Virus record (IMG/VR): IMGVR_UViG_3300027816_000459
Location: 1-21,516 of that record
Strand: one strand, 5' to 3'
DNA from: a virus
DNA length: 21,516 nucleotides
Below the pieces are notes generated by a model. That model was given only the letters and a program-made list of their open reading frames with translations. It was not told the DNA's origin and searched no databases. How positions within the stretch are numbered: the first letter of the stretch is position 1; every line of letters begins with the position of its first letter. The translations under genes and the position numbers were made by a program. Shown here in pieces: positions 1,730 through 21,516 of this stretch.

Positions 1730-3355
1730 TTAGAAACTACCGCCGGTGATCGGATTGCGCATGACAATCTTCAACACTTTGGTAGGGTCTTTTACCCAAA
1801 TCGCAGGCATCGTTTGGGTCATCATGACACGGTAACCGTTGAACTGACCAGAAGACTGGAATCCTTGGGTACGGCCCATGTAGTCCATAGTACCATTCTG
1901 ATACCACCACTTCAATTGATTGTCCCACGAAAGCTTCAACATGAAGATGTTGTCGTTTCCAGTGTCGGTGATGTCGAAAATGATAAAGCTATAGGAGCTA
2001 AGCGGATGTCCATCAATGATCGGGTTTTCGATGTCATTTGTGTAAATGTTATCGAATGCTGGGTTCAAGACGAACTTCACGTTAGCAAGAAACGGAATCA
2101 CGTAGCTGGTGAACGCGAACCCAAAGTTCAAGTCCATACCTTTACCCGTGATTGCGCCGATACCATTGTTATCTGCTGCCTGAATAACAAGACCGGAGTT
2201 CACTGCTTCACGCTTGATCGCTTCGTTGACCATACGCATACCACCCATACCCGTTTGGACGATGAGTTGGCGCTTAGGATCTGGACCTTGGAACTCGACA
2301 CGACCAGCGTAGAAGTTGTACAACTCAGCACGGAACAACTCCAAGGAGAAGTTCGACTTGTTGTAAACACGCTTGAAGGAGTTGTCGAGCTGCTTCCAAA
2401 GACCTACAGACAGACGGATATCATCTGGACCGTCTTGCTTAACGCGACCACCATGTCCCCACATCAAGTAGGTTTCGATGTCCGTAGCAATCTTGGTCAA
2501 GTGAGCTGCTTCCATCGTAGTAAGGAAGGTGCGGGTCAAGGTACCATTACCTACTGCGCGCTTCAGGTAGTCTTTACCCATTTTGGAAGCGATATCCTCG
2601 ATCTTGGTCAACGCAGGATCAAGACTCTTATCGAAGTTCCGCCAAATTTCAGTAACAGGAACGGTACCGTCAGCGTTCATTCCACCCTTGATCATCATGT
2701 CCGCACGGGAGCTGATGGAGTAGTGAACGTGAGCTTCAGCACCACCCACGAAGTTATAGAATTCGCGGAAGCCCGAACGAGTTTGAATATCGGAGAAACG
2801 CTCACCGTACTCACCACGAGCAGATCCTTTACGGAAGATCTTCGTTTGAGGAGCAAGGTACTTGTTCTCCAAGAATTTATAGTTATCGTTGTTCACCAAA
2901 CGAACGGTGTACAAGAAACCATCCCCGAGAGGAAGGATGTCATCGTCCGTGATGTACATTTCAACGCCGTTGTATTTGTCATAGGTGATGATGTCACCAT
3001 GTCCAAATTCGCGTTTGTTAATCTTAATTCTGAAAGTCGTACCGTCGATACCTTTGGTTTCGTTCTCAGGTTCGATGTCTTCAAGAATGTAAGGAAGGTC
3101 TTGACTTACTGGGGTCTGCCACTTGTACTCACCCCGAGCATTGTCAACCATAATCACATTCTTACCACCAAAGGAAGACAACTGATAAAGCGGCATTTCG
3201 ACTTTCTGAGCCATCGCCCAAATATCGACTGGACCCATGTCCATAGGCTCCGCATCTTTCAGCATGTTTACCAGGTGGTAAGAATCTACGTGAGAACTAG
3301 CTTGGTAGTTCGTATCACGTAGAAAAATACCATTGTTTAAAACTGGTGTTGCCAT
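1730..3355 (-). CDS. Major capsid protein (crAss-like, HK97-fold expected)
   Basis: A 541-residue protein (MATPVLNNGIFLRDTNYQ...) in the canonical crAss-like place: portal, scaffold-like protein, then this gene. It has no membrane segment or catalytic motif, is rich in aromatic, Gly and Asn residues, and resembles crAss-like capsid proteins in sequence style (for example WGHGGRVKQDGPDDIR and QTGMGGMRMVNEAI near residues 310-380). HK97 fold is known for this family and inferred here. The gene is visibly richer in C and G than its neighbours, with preferred codons such as GAC, AAC, ATC and TTC, as expected for the most abundant virion protein. That bias also creates a long false open frame on the opposite strand. 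It is followed at once by a strong terminator. The leader is A/T-rich without a Shine-Dalgarno. Confidence 0.92.
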   Translation of the reverse strand: MATPVLNNGIFLRDTNYQASSHVDSYHLVNMLKDAEPMDMGPVDIWAMAQKVEMPLYQLSSFGGKNVIMVDNARGEYKWQTPVSQDLPYILEDIEPENETKGIDGTTFRIKINKREFGHGDIITYDKYNGVEMYITDDDILPLGDGFLYTVRLVNNDNYKFLENKYLAPQTKIFRKGSARGEYGERFSDIQTRSGFREFYNFVGGAEAHVHYSISSRADMMIKGGMNADGTVPVTEIWRNFDKSLDPALTKIEDIASKMGKDYLKRAVGNGTLTRTFLTTMEAAHLTKIATDIETYLMWGHGGRVKQDGPDDIRLSVGLWKQLDNSFKRVYNKSNFSLELFRAELYNFYAGRVEFQGPDPKRQLIVQTGMGGMRMVNEAIKREAVNSGLVIQAADNNGIGAITGKGMDLNFGFAFTSYVIPFLANVKFVLNPAFDNIYTNDIENPIIDGHPLSSYSFIIFDITDTGNDNIFMLKLSWDNQLKWWYQNGTMDYMGRTQGFQSSGQFNGYRVMMTQTMPAIWVKDPTKVLKIVMRNPITGGSF

Positions 3356-18095: not shown

Positions 18096-18749
18096 TCACA
18101 AACTCTTTAACATCTCAATCATCCTAGGACATGGATAAATATCAAACTTATCCTTCCTAACAGAATTGTGAGTATACAAACCTGGGGAACCCTCAAATGC
18201 TCTCTTAGTCAATCCAAAAATATCAGGATTGTAAACAATCTCAATCCCATGCTTCCTACTCAACTCCAAAAGTAACAACCGCACAGACTCAATCTGAGCA
18301 TCTGAATACGAGTGCCAATACATATACCCCTTATACAACTCGTCAAGCTTCGTAACCTGATCATCAGGAATAACACCCCCAACATAGTTCACATACTCAA
18401 CCTTATCCTTACCCTGACGAGGCTTCAAATAACCCCAATTACAAATCTCAATCCCAACCGACATCTTATCCAAATTAATATAGGGAAGATTAAACGGCTT
18501 AAAATGTTTAGTACCCAAACCCAAATGGTACGCCCACTTATCAGAATCAAAACCCTGAATGATCCTACCATCACCCGATACAACAGCAAACGTAGCTACC
18601 CTATCAGGTGTACTAGCCCACCACCTAAACACCCCCTCACCATCACCATTACCAGCCGTGTGGTGCAGATAAATCTGCTTCTTCTTAGTAACCTCATCCA
18701 AAAAATGAGAACTACTAAACTTAATCTTCTTCAAATTATTAATAACCAT
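18096..18749 (-). CDS. N-acetylmuramoyl-L-alanine amidase (endolysin, Amidase_2/T7-lysozyme type)
   Basis: A 217-residue protein with the Amidase_2/PGRP pattern: LHHTAG with His29 or His30 as first zinc ligand, VSGDGRIIQGFD at 58-69, WAYHLG at 73-77, SVGIEICNWG with Glu101, then second zinc histidine His184 (THNSV) and the end motif KDKFDIYPCP (Lys191, Asp193, Cys197). It cleaves the bond between muramic acid and the stem peptide of peptidoglycan. No signal peptide or binding domain is present, so it would need a holin or act from the virion. It is the first gene of the late module, with a 5' region of more than 100 bases and a candidate promoter at 18860-18891. Confidence 0.93.
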   Translation of the reverse strand: MVINNLKKIKFSSSHFLDEVTKKKQIYLHHTAGNGDGEGVFRWWASTPDRVATFAVVSGDGRIIQGFDSDKWAYHLGLGTKHFKPFNLPYINLDKMSVGIEICNWGYLKPRQGKDKVEYVNYVGGVIPDDQVTKLDELYKGYMYWHSYSDAQIESVRLLLLELSRKHGIEIVYNPDIFGLTKRAFEGSPGLYTHNSVRKDKFDIYPCPRMIEMLKSL

Positions 18750-18859
18750 AGTCTTAACCCGTTACAGTAAAAGAGAAAAGGGATACCTAATATAGACATC
18801 CCTACTCTACAATAACAACAACAAAATAAAAAAGTCTTATCAACCAAAAAATCTCAAAC

Positions 18860-18891
18860 CAAAAATACGAAATACATTTCTAACTACGAAA
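18860..18891 (-). promoter_or_regulatory. Candidate Bacteroidales-type promoter for the amidase operon
   Basis: On the minus strand, TTTC (18891-18888), 20 bases, then TATTTTTG (18867-18860), matching TTTG-N19-21-TAnnTTTG except for one base in the -33 block. The start codon of the amidase is about 110 bases downstream, implying a long leader. In A/T-rich DNA such matches arise by chance, so confidence is moderate. Confidence 0.4.
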
Positions 18892-19172
18892 GACTTTGTG
18901 AGTGGTCTTATATAGTAACCCCCCGGGTAGCGAGCGTAGCGGTGGGTACCCCCCATATGTGCAGGGGGTGGGGTACATATTATATATATTTCTTACTAAA
19001 GAATTCTTTTCCATGGGAAAGTTTGGGGGGGTATGGTGAGTTTCCCTAGTCTATTTCCCTAGTAGCATGAGATGAGTGAGTACTAGCTGTAATGAAGTCT
19101 GAGTGGATGACATACATATGTATAGTATGATATAGTACATATAATATATAGCGTTTATTGTATGCGTAAGGT

Positions 19173-19203
19173 GGGGACGCAAAGCGTCCCCAAAAAAACC
19201 TAC
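19173..19203 (+). promoter_or_regulatory. Hairpin element copy 1 (stem GGGGACGC, loop AAA)
   Basis: An 8-bp perfect stem, 19173-19180 with 19184-19191, and the 3-base loop AAA, followed by A7 and CCTAC. The downstream TTGTCAT-like block is altered (gagatatgttatttt), and copy 2 follows 40 bases later. See copy 2 for the family. Confidence 0.75.
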
Positions 19204-19230
19204 GAGATATGTTATTTTCTGTAGTTGTGA

Positions 19231-19302
19231 GGTGACGCAGAGCGTCACCAAAAAAACCTACTTTTTGTCATTGTTGTAGAGTTCGGAACGCGGAACACTA
19301 CA
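19231..19302 (+). promoter_or_regulatory. Hairpin element copy 2 with second stem-loop (candidate early promoter)
   Basis: An 8-bp stem GGTGACGC (19231-19238) with GCGTCACC (19242-19249), loop AGA, then A7, CCTAC, TTTTTGTCATTGTTG, and a second stem-loop (19275-19302: TGTAG and GTTC pairing with GAAC and CTACA, one A-A mismatch). The 120-residue gene starts 40 bases further on after an AGGAGG-containing leader. The stem covaries among copies while the loop and the 3' blocks are kept, so the structure itself is selected. The T-run needed for a terminator is absent on both strands. Confidence 0.75.
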
Positions 19303-19342
19303 TTAACTATAGTCCTGAAAGGAGGGCGAGCGGAATATTATT

Positions 19343-19705
19343 ATGGAATTGAGAACCGTCAAGCAAATTGCTGAACGTGTGTTTAGTGTTCCCGTAGGAG
19401 TTGTCTCCCACGATGCACCTCAACAGTTTACTGCTCACTACCATATTGGTAGCATGGGCAGAACTGAAGAAAACTTCGTGGTATACCAATACCACCCCGA
19501 TAAAGGGTTTGTGCAGGTGGACTGCGTAAACCAGCAACATACGTCCAACTATGCGTATGAGGAGCCCATCTTCAGAAAAGCTCCTAAGTATTTGGTCTCC
19601 GGACCGGTGCTGTTAATCAGCAAAGGTTTCTCCAATTGGGAGGGACAAGAGTCTGCAGAATGGAACTACGGGGTATTGTTCCCCGATGTAGAGCTTCCAT
19701 TCTAA
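19343..19705 (+). CDS. Early protein of unknown function, 120 residues, C-terminal ELPF
   Basis: A protein starting MELRTVKQIAERVFSVPVG, soluble, of mixed alpha/beta character and rich in aromatic residues. It has no TM segment and only one Cys. The C-terminus, LFPDVELPF, has the final Pro-Phe seen in single-stranded DNA-binding protein tips but is only mildly acidic. The second early gene (20508-20900) likewise opens with an (S)ELR..I motif and ends LPF, hinting at a family. AAGGAGGG at 19318-19325 is a good Shine-Dalgarno sequence but lies about 18 bases from the ATG, farther than usual. Codon use is richer in G and C than in the late genes. It is followed at once by a terminator. I do not recognise a family. 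Confidence 0.75.
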   Translation: MELRTVKQIAERVFSVPVGVVSHDAPQQFTAHYHIGSMGRTEENFVVYQYHPDKGFVQVDCVNQQHTSNYAYEEPIFRKAPKYLVSGPVLLISKGFSNWEGQESAEWNYGVLFPDVELPF

Positions 19706-19710
19706 CACAA

Positions 19711-19741
19711 ACACCCAACCCCGTAAGGTTGGGTGTGTTTT
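19711..19741 (+). terminator. Rho-independent terminator after the 120-residue early gene
   Basis: A perfect 10-bp stem ACACCCAACC (19711-19720) with GGTTGGGTGT (19727-19736), loop CCGTAA, then GTTTTATT. It starts 6 bases after the stop codon. Confidence 0.85.
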
Positions 19742-19759
19742 ATTATCTAGAAGGAGATA

Positions 19760-19774
19760 AAAGCGCGACGCTTT
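19760..19774 (+). other. Short hairpin with CGA loop
   Basis: AAAGCG (19760-19765) pairs with CGCTTT (19769-19774) around the 3-base loop CGA, just after an isolated AGAAGGAGAT sequence with no ATG at Shine-Dalgarno distance. It lacks the A-run and CCTAC block of the hairpin family, so it is recorded separately. Function unknown. Confidence 0.35.
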
Positions 19775-19799
19775 AGCTCGTTAATCATATCCTACAGAT

Positions 19800-19874
19800 A
19801 TGTCCTTCTATTCACTGAAACCTGAACATCATAGGGGAGTAGGTATTTATCCACTAAAACAAGGATTGAGATGA
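19800..19874 (+). CDS. Possible 24-residue leader peptide upstream of the two-TM protein
   Basis: An ATG at 19800 opens a 24-codon frame (MSFYSLKPEHHRGVGIYPLK...) whose TGA overlaps the ATG of the next gene (ATGA). The coupling is suggestive of a real cistron or leader, but there is no strong ribosome site and the frame is very short, so it may be chance. Confidence 0.3.
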   Translation: MSFYSLKPEHHRGVGIYPLKQGLR

Positions 19875-20038
19875 CACAGTTGATTTTCATGAGCTCATTG
19901 TGCTCCATTTTCCTCTTCATTATCTTTCTATTGAAAGGTTTGGTAGAGGAGAACGGAGCAAGAATGTCGGCGTACCTTTTGTATGCTGGCATTTATGCGG
20001 TAGTCGCGGTAGTTCTCGCGAACCTACTACCGAATTAA
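19871..20038 (+). CDS. Small two-TM early membrane protein
   Basis: A 55-residue protein, MTQLIFMSSLCSIFLFIIFL..., with two hydrophobic segments, about residues 3-22 and 34-53, separated by a charged loop (KGLVEENGARM). AAGGA lies 7 bases before the ATG. A strong terminator starts 6 bases after the stop, marking the end of a real transcript. Small early membrane proteins of phages often modify the host envelope or exclude other phages; nothing in the sequence specifies which, and no family is recognised. Confidence 0.62.
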   Translation: MTQLIFMSSLCSIFLFIIFLLKGLVEENGARMSAYLLYAGIYAVVAVVLANLLPN

Positions 20039-20043
20039 AAAAC

Positions 20044-20080
20044 AGGACAAGGGGAAACCCTTGTCCTTATTTTTTTTCTT
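20044..20080 (+). terminator. Rho-independent terminator after the two-TM gene
   Basis: A perfect 10-bp stem AGGACAAGGG (20044-20053) with CCCTTGTCCT (20058-20067), GAAA tetraloop, then a TATTTTTTTTCTT run. It is the strongest terminator in the window. Confidence 0.92.
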
Positions 20081-20431
20081 ACAACAAGGTGTCTCCTTCG
20101 TCGACGGGTCTTATGGATCATGTTCCGCTTTGCTCCACATGATCTTTCCCCCGCATGAGCGCACGTGACCAGCGCCTCCTTCGTCGGCACTAGTCCACGT
20201 GCACATCATGCTCCGCACATGGACGTGACGCGTCTTCGCTTCGCTCGACACTGTCACCATCCATCTAGATGTCTTCGCTAAAGCTCAGACATCATTGTGC
20301 TACGTTCGGCTCAGAGAGCCTCAAAAAAAACTCACGCGCTAGTCAGATTCGCGGGAGTGCTAACGACGGGGTGTTACTATCATCACACAACAACTCGCTC
20401 GCTATCCGCTCGCTCGGTCACACTAAGCTGT
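20081..20431. repeat. Cluster of palindromes with related loops, gene-free
   Basis: The gap 20039-20507 has no supportable gene. Its left part is packed with inverted repeats: GATCATGT/ACATGATC (20116-20144, 13-base loop); GTCCACGTGC/GCACATGGAC (20193-20224, one mismatch); GTGAC..GTC/GAC..GTCAC (20225-20257); GATGTCT/AGACATC (20268-20293). Arms differ but loops are alike and end in GCTC: TCCGCTTTGCTCC, ACATCATGCTCC, TTCGCTTCGCTC, TCGCTAAAGCTC. GCACGTG at 20161-20167 can also pair with CACGTGC at 20196-20202, giving an alternative fold. Further right are direct repeats of CTCGCTCG (near 20396 and 20409). The function is unknown: structured RNA, replication or recombination site, or mobile palindromes. 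Confidence 0.7.
20308..20335 (+). promoter_or_regulatory. Hairpin element, degenerate copy (stem GGCTC, loop AGA)
   Basis: GGCTC (20308-20312) pairs with GAGCC (20316-20320) around AGA, followed by TC, A8 and CTCAC, and further on TAGTCAG where other copies have TTGTCAT. The outer three stem pairs are lost. No gene follows directly, so it may be inactive or weak. Confidence 0.5.
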
Positions 20432-20500
20432 GGTGACTCAGAGAGTCACCGAAAAAACCTACCCTTTATCATCATTGCGCTTATCCGTTTAAGCGTTTTA
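20432..20500 (+). promoter_or_regulatory. Hairpin element copy 3 with second stem-loop (candidate early promoter)
   Basis: An 8-bp stem GGTGACTC (20432-20439) with GAGTCACC (20443-20450), loop AGA, then G, A6, CCTACC, TTTATCATCATTG, and a second stem-loop CGCTTA/TAAGCG (20478-20483 with 20490-20495) followed by TTTTA. The ATG of the 130-residue gene is 12 bases after the second stem. GTCAC at 20417-20421 could pair with the left arm instead, giving an alternative structure. Confidence 0.75.
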
Positions 20501-20507
20501 TCAACTA

Positions 20508-20900
20508 ATGTTTTACCCTAAACTTTTAATCCACATGAAAACGAAATTCATGTCCATGTCTGAATTGCGCCAAATTCCATTTGGTCGCACAATTCACCTC
20601 TTCGGCTCCTACTGGACGAAAGTCCGTATGACCGAAGAGACATTTAATGTTTTCGGGGAATTAGCCCCCGAAAACATGGTACTCTACAAAAACGTAACCC
20701 GCAAGGGTCACGTATTTGTCGCGTACCAAGGTAGCGACAGCGAGAAATTCTTCACACTTGTGAAGAAAGCGTGTATCCTTAGGGATGCGCGTAAAGCGGG
20801 TATCTCAGTTCGGTTCACCCCCGAATCTGAGATTACCGCACGTCCTGTGCATGTTGCAACCGCAGTCATATTTGAAGACGAGGATGACCTCCCATTCTGA
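20508..20900 (+). CDS. Early protein with SSB-like acidic C-terminal tip (EDEDDLPF)
   Basis: A 130-residue protein from the first ATG; starts at 20535 (MKTKFMSMSELRQ), 20550 or 20556 are possible and the inner ones place the SELRQI motif nearer the N-terminus, as in the 120-residue early protein. No Shine-Dalgarno distinguishes them. The body is basic to neutral and of mixed alpha/beta character, with a helix around FFTLVKKACILRDARKAG. The last residues, FEDEDDLPF, closely match the tip of bacterial SSB (acidic residues then (I/L)PF), which recruits replication and repair proteins. I see no clear OB-fold signature, so it may be a divergent SSB or a protein that mimics the tip. Its TGA overlaps the next ATG (TGATG). 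Confidence 0.75.
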   Translation: MFYPKLLIHMKTKFMSMSELRQIPFGRTIHLFGSYWTKVRMTEETFNVFGELAPENMVLYKNVTRKGHVFVAYQGSDSEKFFTLVKKACILRDARKAGISVRFTPESEITARPVHVATAVIFEDEDDLPF

Positions 20901-21046
20901 TGACTGAAAAACTCAAAAAGCTCCCTCATGGCGCGAAAGTGCGCTATGAGGGAACGGTTTGTGTCGTACTTAAACGGCACACGATTCGCGGGACGGTAAC
21001 ACGTCTCGTATGTGTTAAATCTAATATTCCAATGGAGGTCCTATGA
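20900..21046 (+). CDS. Small basic early protein, 48 residues
   Basis: A frame from the ATG at 20900, which overlaps the TGA of the previous gene (TGATG), to a TGA at 21044-21046: MTEKLKKLPHGAKVRYEGTV...KSNIPMEVL. It is basic, with alternating hydrophobic residues that suggest a small beta barrel (AKVRYEGTVCVVLKRHTIRGTV). Coupling to genes on both sides supports translation. No family is recognised; a small nucleic-acid-binding protein is possible. Confidence 0.55.
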   Translation: MTEKLKKLPHGAKVRYEGTVCVVLKRHTIRGTVTRLVCVKSNIPMEVL

Positions 21047-21114
21047 TTTTATTGGGTGTGACATTGGCATCAAGTTTTGTGATGCTGATGTTGGGTAGCG
21101 ACCTTATCCGCTAA
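21043..21114 (+). CDS. Possible 23-residue single-TM peptide
   Basis: An ATG at 21043 overlaps the TGA of the 48-residue frame (ATGA) and opens 23 codons, MILLGVTLASSFVMLMLGSD..., a single hydrophobic helix. AATGGAGG at 21031-21038, five bases upstream of the ATG, is a good ribosome site. A terminator begins 7 bases after the stop. Its ribosome site, coupling and terminator favour a real gene despite the size; function unknown. Confidence 0.5.
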   Translation: MILLGVTLASSFVMLMLGSDLIR

Positions 21115-21120
21115 GACATT

Positions 21121-21166
21121 ATAGGGTGGGTTGAGTGCTTCGCGCATTCCCCACCCTATTTTTTTA
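21121..21166 (+). terminator. Rho-independent terminator after the SSB-tip operon
   Basis: A 10-bp stem ATAGGGTGGG (21121-21130) with CCCACCCTAT (21150-21159), extended by inner pairing of GAGTGC with GCATTC (one G-T pair), followed by a T7 run. Confidence 0.9.
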
Positions 21167-21186
21167 CTTTAACAAGTTTTAATTTT

Positions 21187-21405
21187 ATGAACATCAGATT
21201 TGATATTGAAATTCTTGACGGATTGAGCCCTGTTAAACAGGAGAAAGTTGCTTTAATCCGTCAAATCAACGACAGGAACATCAAATATCGTAGTCGTTCA
21301 ATAACGACTGACGAATTTGATTACCTGTATGAGCTATCCATTAATTACCTTATCACAATAAAGGAAGGTATGGATTACGAGCTTAACAAAGTAGAGGGGT
21401 ATTAA
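21187..21405 (+). CDS. Small early protein, 72 residues, unknown
   Basis: A protein starting MNIRFDIEILDGLSPVKQEKV..., charged and mostly helical after the first strand, with no Cys, signal or TM segment. The leader is A/T-rich (AAGTTTTAATTTT) without a clear Shine-Dalgarno, like the late genes and unlike the first early gene. It lies between two terminators, so it needs its own promoter in 21167-21186 or depends on read-through. Its TAA lies in the loop of its own terminator. No family recognised. Confidence 0.62.
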   Translation: MNIRFDIEILDGLSPVKQEKVALIRQINDRNIKYRSRSITTDEFDYLYELSINYLITIKEGMDYELNKVEGY

Positions 21406-21419
21406 CCCCTTTACTTTAT
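21395..21419 (+). terminator. Terminator overlapping the stop codon of the 72-residue gene
   Basis: AGGGGT (21395-21400) pairs with ACCCCT (21405-21410) around a 4-base loop that contains most of the TAA stop (21403-21405), followed by TTACTTTAT. The stem is short, so efficiency may be moderate. Confidence 0.6.
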
Positions 21420-21422
21420 GTA

Positions 21423-21495
21423 GTTGACGCAGAGCGTCAACGAAAAAACTCACCATTTGTCATTCTTGTGTTACATATTCGGTGTAACATTTTTT
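21423..21495 (+). promoter_or_regulatory. Hairpin element copy 4 with second stem-loop (candidate early promoter)
   Basis: An 8-bp stem GTTGACGC (21423-21430) with GCGTCAAC (21434-21441), loop AGA, then G, A6, CTCACC, ATTTGTCATTCTTG, and a second stem-loop TGTTACA/TGTAACA (21469-21475 with 21483-21489) followed by T6. The gene it would serve lies beyond the window. Compared with copy 2, the second pair changed G-C to T-A on both sides. Confidence 0.75.
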
Positions 21496-21516
21496 ATGTT
21501 TTAACAACTTAATAAT

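Follow-up and report, generated by a model that had tools for sequence, protein, structure and literature searches.

The described promoters closest to the element reported here are those of coliphage N4: the hairpin measures 5-7 bp, its loop has 3 bases, some stem positions are fixed and others variable, and the template strand carries an A4 ruler (PMC4496689). In N4-like Pseudomonas phages, hairpins with stems of 4-5 nt and 3-nt loops are found before early genes (PMC3715699). The other relevant system is early transcription by gp66, the virion RNA polymerase of the crAss-like phage phi14:2 (PDB 6VR4), which resembles the present case in that relatives of our phage encode a homologue of this polymerase and in that a divergent early region lies past a strand switch. 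In the papers retrieved we came across no account of the way in which the crAss-type virion RNA polymerase locates early promoters, nor did the papers searched yield a crAss promoter motif.

The DNA analysed here (the window), a fragment 21.5 kb long, comes from an environmental crAss-like phage. Window proteins matched head and packaging PHROG families, and the genes for MCP, portal, TerL and amidase are all directed leftward. Judged by the sequences of TerL (28% to cr55_1), portal and MCP (with matches to crAss MCPs), the phage is crAss-like (Crassvirales-related), in agreement with the first-pass annotation and with the giant RNA polymerase of the phi14:2 type in its relatives. The best named relative of the MCP (1730-3355) was that of the cyanobacterial Leptolyngbya phage Lbo-JY46 (29% over 99%), ahead of the gut crAss phages. 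The leftward genes start at 18749 and are followed by a divergent region and then by small rightward genes without known relatives. From the strand switch, the genome layout and analogy we infer that these rightward genes are early.

A hairpin element repeated among the rightward genes

Past the strand switch, we found four copies of an element and one degenerate copy, all located outside genes; this tally covers the fragment only, the replication half of the genome lying outside the window.

19173-19218, + strand: copy 1, stem GGGGACGC/GCGTCCCC, loop AAA, A7, CCTAC, divergent 3' block GAGATATGTTATTTT
19231-19276, + strand: copy 2, stem GGTGACGC/GCGTCACC, loop AGA, A7, CCTAC, TTTTTGTCATTGTTG
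20308-20351, + strand: degenerate copy 5, GGCTC-AGA-GAGCC, A8, CTCAC, decayed core, lying 124 nt upstream of copy 3
20432-20477, + strand: copy 3, stem GGTGACTC/GAGTCACC, loop AGA, GA6, CCTAC, CCTTTATCATCATTG
21423-21468, + strand: copy 4, stem GTTGACGC/GCGTCAAC, loop AGA, GA6, CTCAC, CATTTGTCATTCTTG

The four full copies align without gaps over 46 columns and follow a common plan of an 8-bp stem with a 3-base loop (hairpin 1), (A/G)A6, CCTAC or CTCAC and then a 3' block, which is divergent in copy 1. The first-pass annotation had given the places and the strand of these four copies correctly, and had noted that a gene comes immediately after copy 2 and after copy 3. It had also described the 3' block as kept, which is true of copies 2 and 4 (both with TTTGTCATTnTTG) and, in a variant form (TTTATCATCATTG), of copy 3, but not of copy 1, which lacks the block. 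Copy 1 starts 58 nt before copy 2 and both precede gene 19343, copies 5 and 3 precede gene 20508/20535, and copy 4 lies directly after a terminator-like site, with the next gene beyond the contig end. The surrounding features are the following:

19343-19705, + strand: first rightward gene, 120 aa, no known family, immediately downstream of copies 1 and 2 and ending before the terminator at 19711-19736
19711-19736: terminator after a gene (terminator scan)
20044-20067: terminator after a gene (terminator scan)
20535-20900, + strand: gene after copies 5 and 3, 121 aa (130 aa from the ATG at 20508), no known family
21394-21412: terminator-like site just before copy 4 (terminator scan)

With copy 4 coming after a terminator and ahead of the following transcription unit, the layout is that of a promoter/leader. 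Gene 21187 comes after a terminator and has no element of its own.

Some other properties of the region were observed. The orphan proteins encoded at 19343-19705 and 20535-20900 are unrelated and both end in LPF (DVELPF and DEDDLPF, respectively), resembling the acidic C-terminal tail of single-strand binding proteins. Positions 20068-20430 form a GC-rich non-coding run of hairpins of about 360 nt (with TTCGCT in loops and CTCCGC-like sequence), of a stability above that of shuffles (z -3.9), that contains the degenerate copy 5, stops just short of copy 3 and is possibly a structured RNA. An inverted repeat pair (CGGGTAGCGAGCG / CGCTCGCTATCCG) is present at 18924-18936, in the divergent region, and at 20396-20408, just before copy 3.

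In the stem of hairpin 1, positions 1, 4, 5, 6 and 8 are fixed and positions 2, 3 and 7 vary. All 32 cells (8 pairs in each of four copies) are paired, with three pairs changed on both sides and none on one side only. Pairing as good as this was obtained in 4 of 500 shuffles, and slid registers were 22-44% paired. The matched stem changes reported at first pass are therewith confirmed; their reading as direct evidence of selection for structure goes too far, since both arms can be made to match by template switching in quasi-palindromes as well, and the covariation rests on four of a set of copies that are all paralogues within 2.3 kb of one contig. We consider the three double substitutions among these four paralogues good evidence for such selection.

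The possibility that hairpin 1 is an intrinsic terminator was rejected, as it had been before: A6-7 follows the stem on the + strand, the T-run precedes the stem on the - strand, and the hairpin is absent from the terminator scan. All pairs of hairpin 1 are Watson-Crick pairs (no G.U), with a C-G pair closing the 3-base loop, and the stems folded as single-stranded DNA reach -6.6 to -9.1 kcal/mol, with none of 200 shuffles as good.

Operators are commonly laid out as a perfect palindrome with a 3-bp centre next to a promoter, here a putative one, and the inner half-sites GAC(G/T)C of hairpin 1 are well conserved. Both would suit a palindromic operator for a dimeric regulator of phage or host located beside a promoter, in which pairing is a by-product of the half-sites. 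An operator does not require compensated changes, yet of the eight positions three differ on both arms and no position on a single arm, and we regard this explanation as quite unlikely.

A covariance model trained on the four copies (which it recovers by construction) matched the degenerate copy at 20305-20351 (E=0.0017), indicating that this copy, noted at first pass, is real but weak; nothing else convincing was found with it across the window. Rfam gave no match near the gathering score over 18700-21516. A hairpin AAAGCG-CGA-CGCTTT at 19759-19810 is followed about 16 nt later by CCTACAGATATGT, which resembles the 3' block of copy 1; this may be a very divergent sixth copy before gene 19871, and it was not matched by the covariance model.

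A second hairpin and a candidate transcription start

Copies 2, 3 and 4 each contain a further hairpin (hairpin 2), missed at first pass, which begins at about the final G of the TTG closing the 3' block, at a fixed offset of about 45 from the element start.

19275-19302, + strand: second hairpin of copy 2, TGTAGaGTTC...GAACaCTACA, with at most 1% of shuffles folding as well
20477-20496, + strand: second hairpin of copy 3, GCGCTTA-tccgtt-TAAGCGT, with G.T at the base and TTTATC after it
21468-21490, + strand: second hairpin of copy 4, GTGTTACAT...GTGTAACAT, with T-rich sequence after it

The three stems (GTAGaGTTC, GCGCTTA and GTGTTACA) are unrelated to one another, and each is self-complementary. 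Shuffle p values were 0.001, 0.002 and 0.004 for copies 2, 3 and 4, and the position-matched fractions were 0.013, 0.055 and 0.013 in the whole window and 0.04, 0.10 and 0.04 in the early region, so that the joint chance, taken as the product of the per-copy fractions, is about 1e-5 for the whole window and 2e-4 for the early region alone. At this position copy 1 folds differently and more weakly. Hairpin 2 has longer loops than hairpin 1, and in copies 3 and 4 it has G.U at its base, followed by T-rich sequence.

We propose, giving it an even chance, that the element is an early promoter and leader module repeated before rightward transcription units of this crAss-like phage. Hairpin 1 and the A-tract would be upstream promoter DNA for the phage's own polymerase, either as an extruded hairpin or as a recognised palindrome. 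Transcription would start after the A-tract and ahead of hairpin 2, within or close to the 26-nt sequence A7-CCTAC-nnTTT(G/A)TCATnnTTG, and hairpin 2 would form a stem-loop at the 5' end of the message, free in sequence, kept in pairing and serving stability or regulation. The start is placed between the hairpins because the character of hairpin 1 suits DNA and that of hairpin 2 suits RNA: hairpins with Watson-Crick pairs only and 3-base loops are DNA-like, and longer loops with terminal G.U pairs are RNA-like.

Alternatively, transcription could start upstream of hairpin 1, which would make the whole element an RNA leader with both hairpins and the A-tract acting in the 5' UTR (e.g. in translation control, in RNA stability or as target of a phage RNA-binding protein). 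The compensated pairing in both hairpins, the kept loop and A-tract, and the T-rich sequence after the second hairpins of copies 3 and 4 are in line with this, but no shared promoter motif was seen upstream of hairpin 1, the variable pairs of hairpin 1 are all Watson-Crick without G.U, and AGA and AAA triloops are, to our knowledge, unusual for RNA. We find such a leader possible, though rather unlikely.

The perfection of the hairpins might also be mutational, resulting from template-switch correction of quasi-palindromes combined with recent duplication of a gene cassette and having no structural role. Matched changes are what such correction would produce, the copies are without exception paralogues lying within 2.3 kb of a single contig, and the element was found in no independent lineage searched. 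Against this, the loop, the A-tract and the 3' block have been kept while flanks and genes are unrelated, and the second hairpins are wholly different in sequence and still paired at the same offset, which makes a mutational origin improbable in our opinion.

Comparison with N4 promoters

The element resembles P1-P3 of N4 and the promoters of N4-like Pseudomonas phages (Schitoviridae) in having, ahead of early genes, a short and perfectly paired hairpin with a 3-base loop, in its conserved and freely covarying stem positions, in an A/T spacer followed by a C/G pair, and in the occurrence of several copies on one strand. The differences are the 8-bp stem, the reversed strand polarity, the second hairpin and the long extra conserved block, and at the level of the phage group the unrelated two-barrel polymerase. 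The non-template strand of N4 P1 (identified by eye from the sequence before gp1) reads GTTGC-TTC-GCAAC-TTATGG; a strict A4/T4 scan missed the known N4 promoters, because P1 has TTAT. The non-template strand of the window element reads GCAGAGC...AAAAAAACC, with the purine loop and the A-tract on the strand opposite to that of N4. Thus, the purine loop, found on the template strand in N4, is here on the non-template strand for the genes downstream, and in place of a template AAAA spacer followed by C at +1 there is a non-template A6-7 followed by CC or CT (TTAT followed by GG in N4 P1). The position before early genes on the same strand is shared, copies 2 and 3 being directly before rightward genes whose timing is judged from the layout.

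The resemblance in the 3-base loop with a central purine, the C-G closing pair, the fixed and variable stem positions, the A-tract and the association with early genes (PMC4496689) could suggest an N4-type hairpin promoter read by an N4-type virion RNA polymerase. Nevertheless, the polarity is reversed (the strand in gene direction carries the purine loop, A7 and CC), and no match to an N4-type (T7-like) virion RNA polymerase was found in five relatives, in a search that did find the positive control N4; the window's own genome is incomplete. We consider this reading very improbable: the element may work in an N4-promoter-like manner, yet it is not N4-type.

The slot before early genes in related phages

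IMG/VR contains many contigs with an MCP 85-93% identical to that of the window. Further copies in related contigs, for which the first-pass annotation had suggested a search, were not found: in 50 sampled related contigs the covariance model gave only weak matches (E 0.007-0.08), none with hairpin and A-tract on inspection. A generic scan (stem, 3-5 base loop and A-run) of 16 relatives (about 1 Mb) gave a few scattered matches, none like the element, and there was no copy in the INPHARED phages searched. In IMG/VR, the exact CAGAG-type pattern gave one chance match inside a gene, the pattern A6-C-nnAC-TTT-TCAT gave 35 matches (0 with an upstream hairpin), stem plus A6CCTAC gave 75 matches (the only hairpins being one 5-bp type common to four similar sequences), and stem plus A5 gave no hairpin. 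Three bacterial matches in a GTDB scan were unrelated. A general use of such hairpins among crAss phages was rejected, no hairpin element being seen in the phi14:2 leader regions examined, which sets phi14:2 apart from the window. So far, the element is known from a single fragment. No relatives of the proteins 19343 and 20535 were found in IMG/VR, and early regions could therefore not be collected by gene.

The late genes of the relatives are collinear with those of the window and the early genes are not shared, except that gene 21187 weakly matches an early gene of relative G004 (E=0.002). The relative G007 (IMGVR_UViG_3300003653_000052; 126 kb; L106), with an MCP 88% identical to that of the window, has about 14 copies of a motif ATAACACTCTTTATA(A/T)TTG in a 4-kb block (119205-122980 in contig coordinates), nearly all of which precede + strand genes, while several come straight after terminator-like hairpins. 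We consider this array a clear candidate for an early-promoter array of a crAss-like phage. It is comparable to the window element in its slot between terminator and early gene and in its many copies on one strand; it differs in being a linear motif without hairpins. In G014, a weaker motif (motif likelihood 49.7 versus 35.6 shuffled) occupies the slot between terminator and early gene. Homology of the window 3' block to the G007 or G014 motif was rejected as not significant (p 0.06-0.8), and a scan of the window with the G007 matrix gave no G007-type promoter; the common slot is therefore an analogy. By position only, promoter-like repeats appear to occupy this slot in the family. Several early genes of G018 (L150, 108-110 kb in contig coordinates) come after 3-base-loop hairpins with differing stems (GTCC-TTC-GGAC, GTGC-TGC-GCAC and TTCC-TGC-GGAA), followed by T-rich sequence and (C/A)ACT(A/G)A; these are probably terminators with a promoter motif fused to them.

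In five relatives we found a gene for a giant protein of 3,300-4,600 residues with the motif G-x-D(F/Y)D(V/I)DK; the profile of this protein matches the phi14:2 RNA polymerase 6VR4 (E=9.7e-32). The two-barrel giant virion RNA polymerase was thus found in relatives and not in the window fragment. The promoter and leader module is favoured by this polymerase and by the promoter-like repeats in the slot in G007 and G014, together with the compensated stems, the offset of hairpin 2 in three copies, the non-coding position and the terminator-like site before copy 4. Against it are copy 1 without the 3' block, gene 21187 after a terminator without an element, and the absence of the hairpin from the relatives searched and from the phi14:2 leader regions examined. 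A more specific proposal, which we make tentatively and think unlikely, is that this crAss-like phage independently evolved DNA-hairpin promoters, in which the two-barrel virion polymerase would recognise an extruded triloop hairpin of opposite polarity and the messages would start with a stem-loop.

The structured element and the linear repeat of G007 provide concrete candidates for early promoters of the crAss type. Should hairpin 1 function as DNA, the recognition of promoters by way of an extruded hairpin would have evolved on at least two occasions, in polymerases unrelated to each other.
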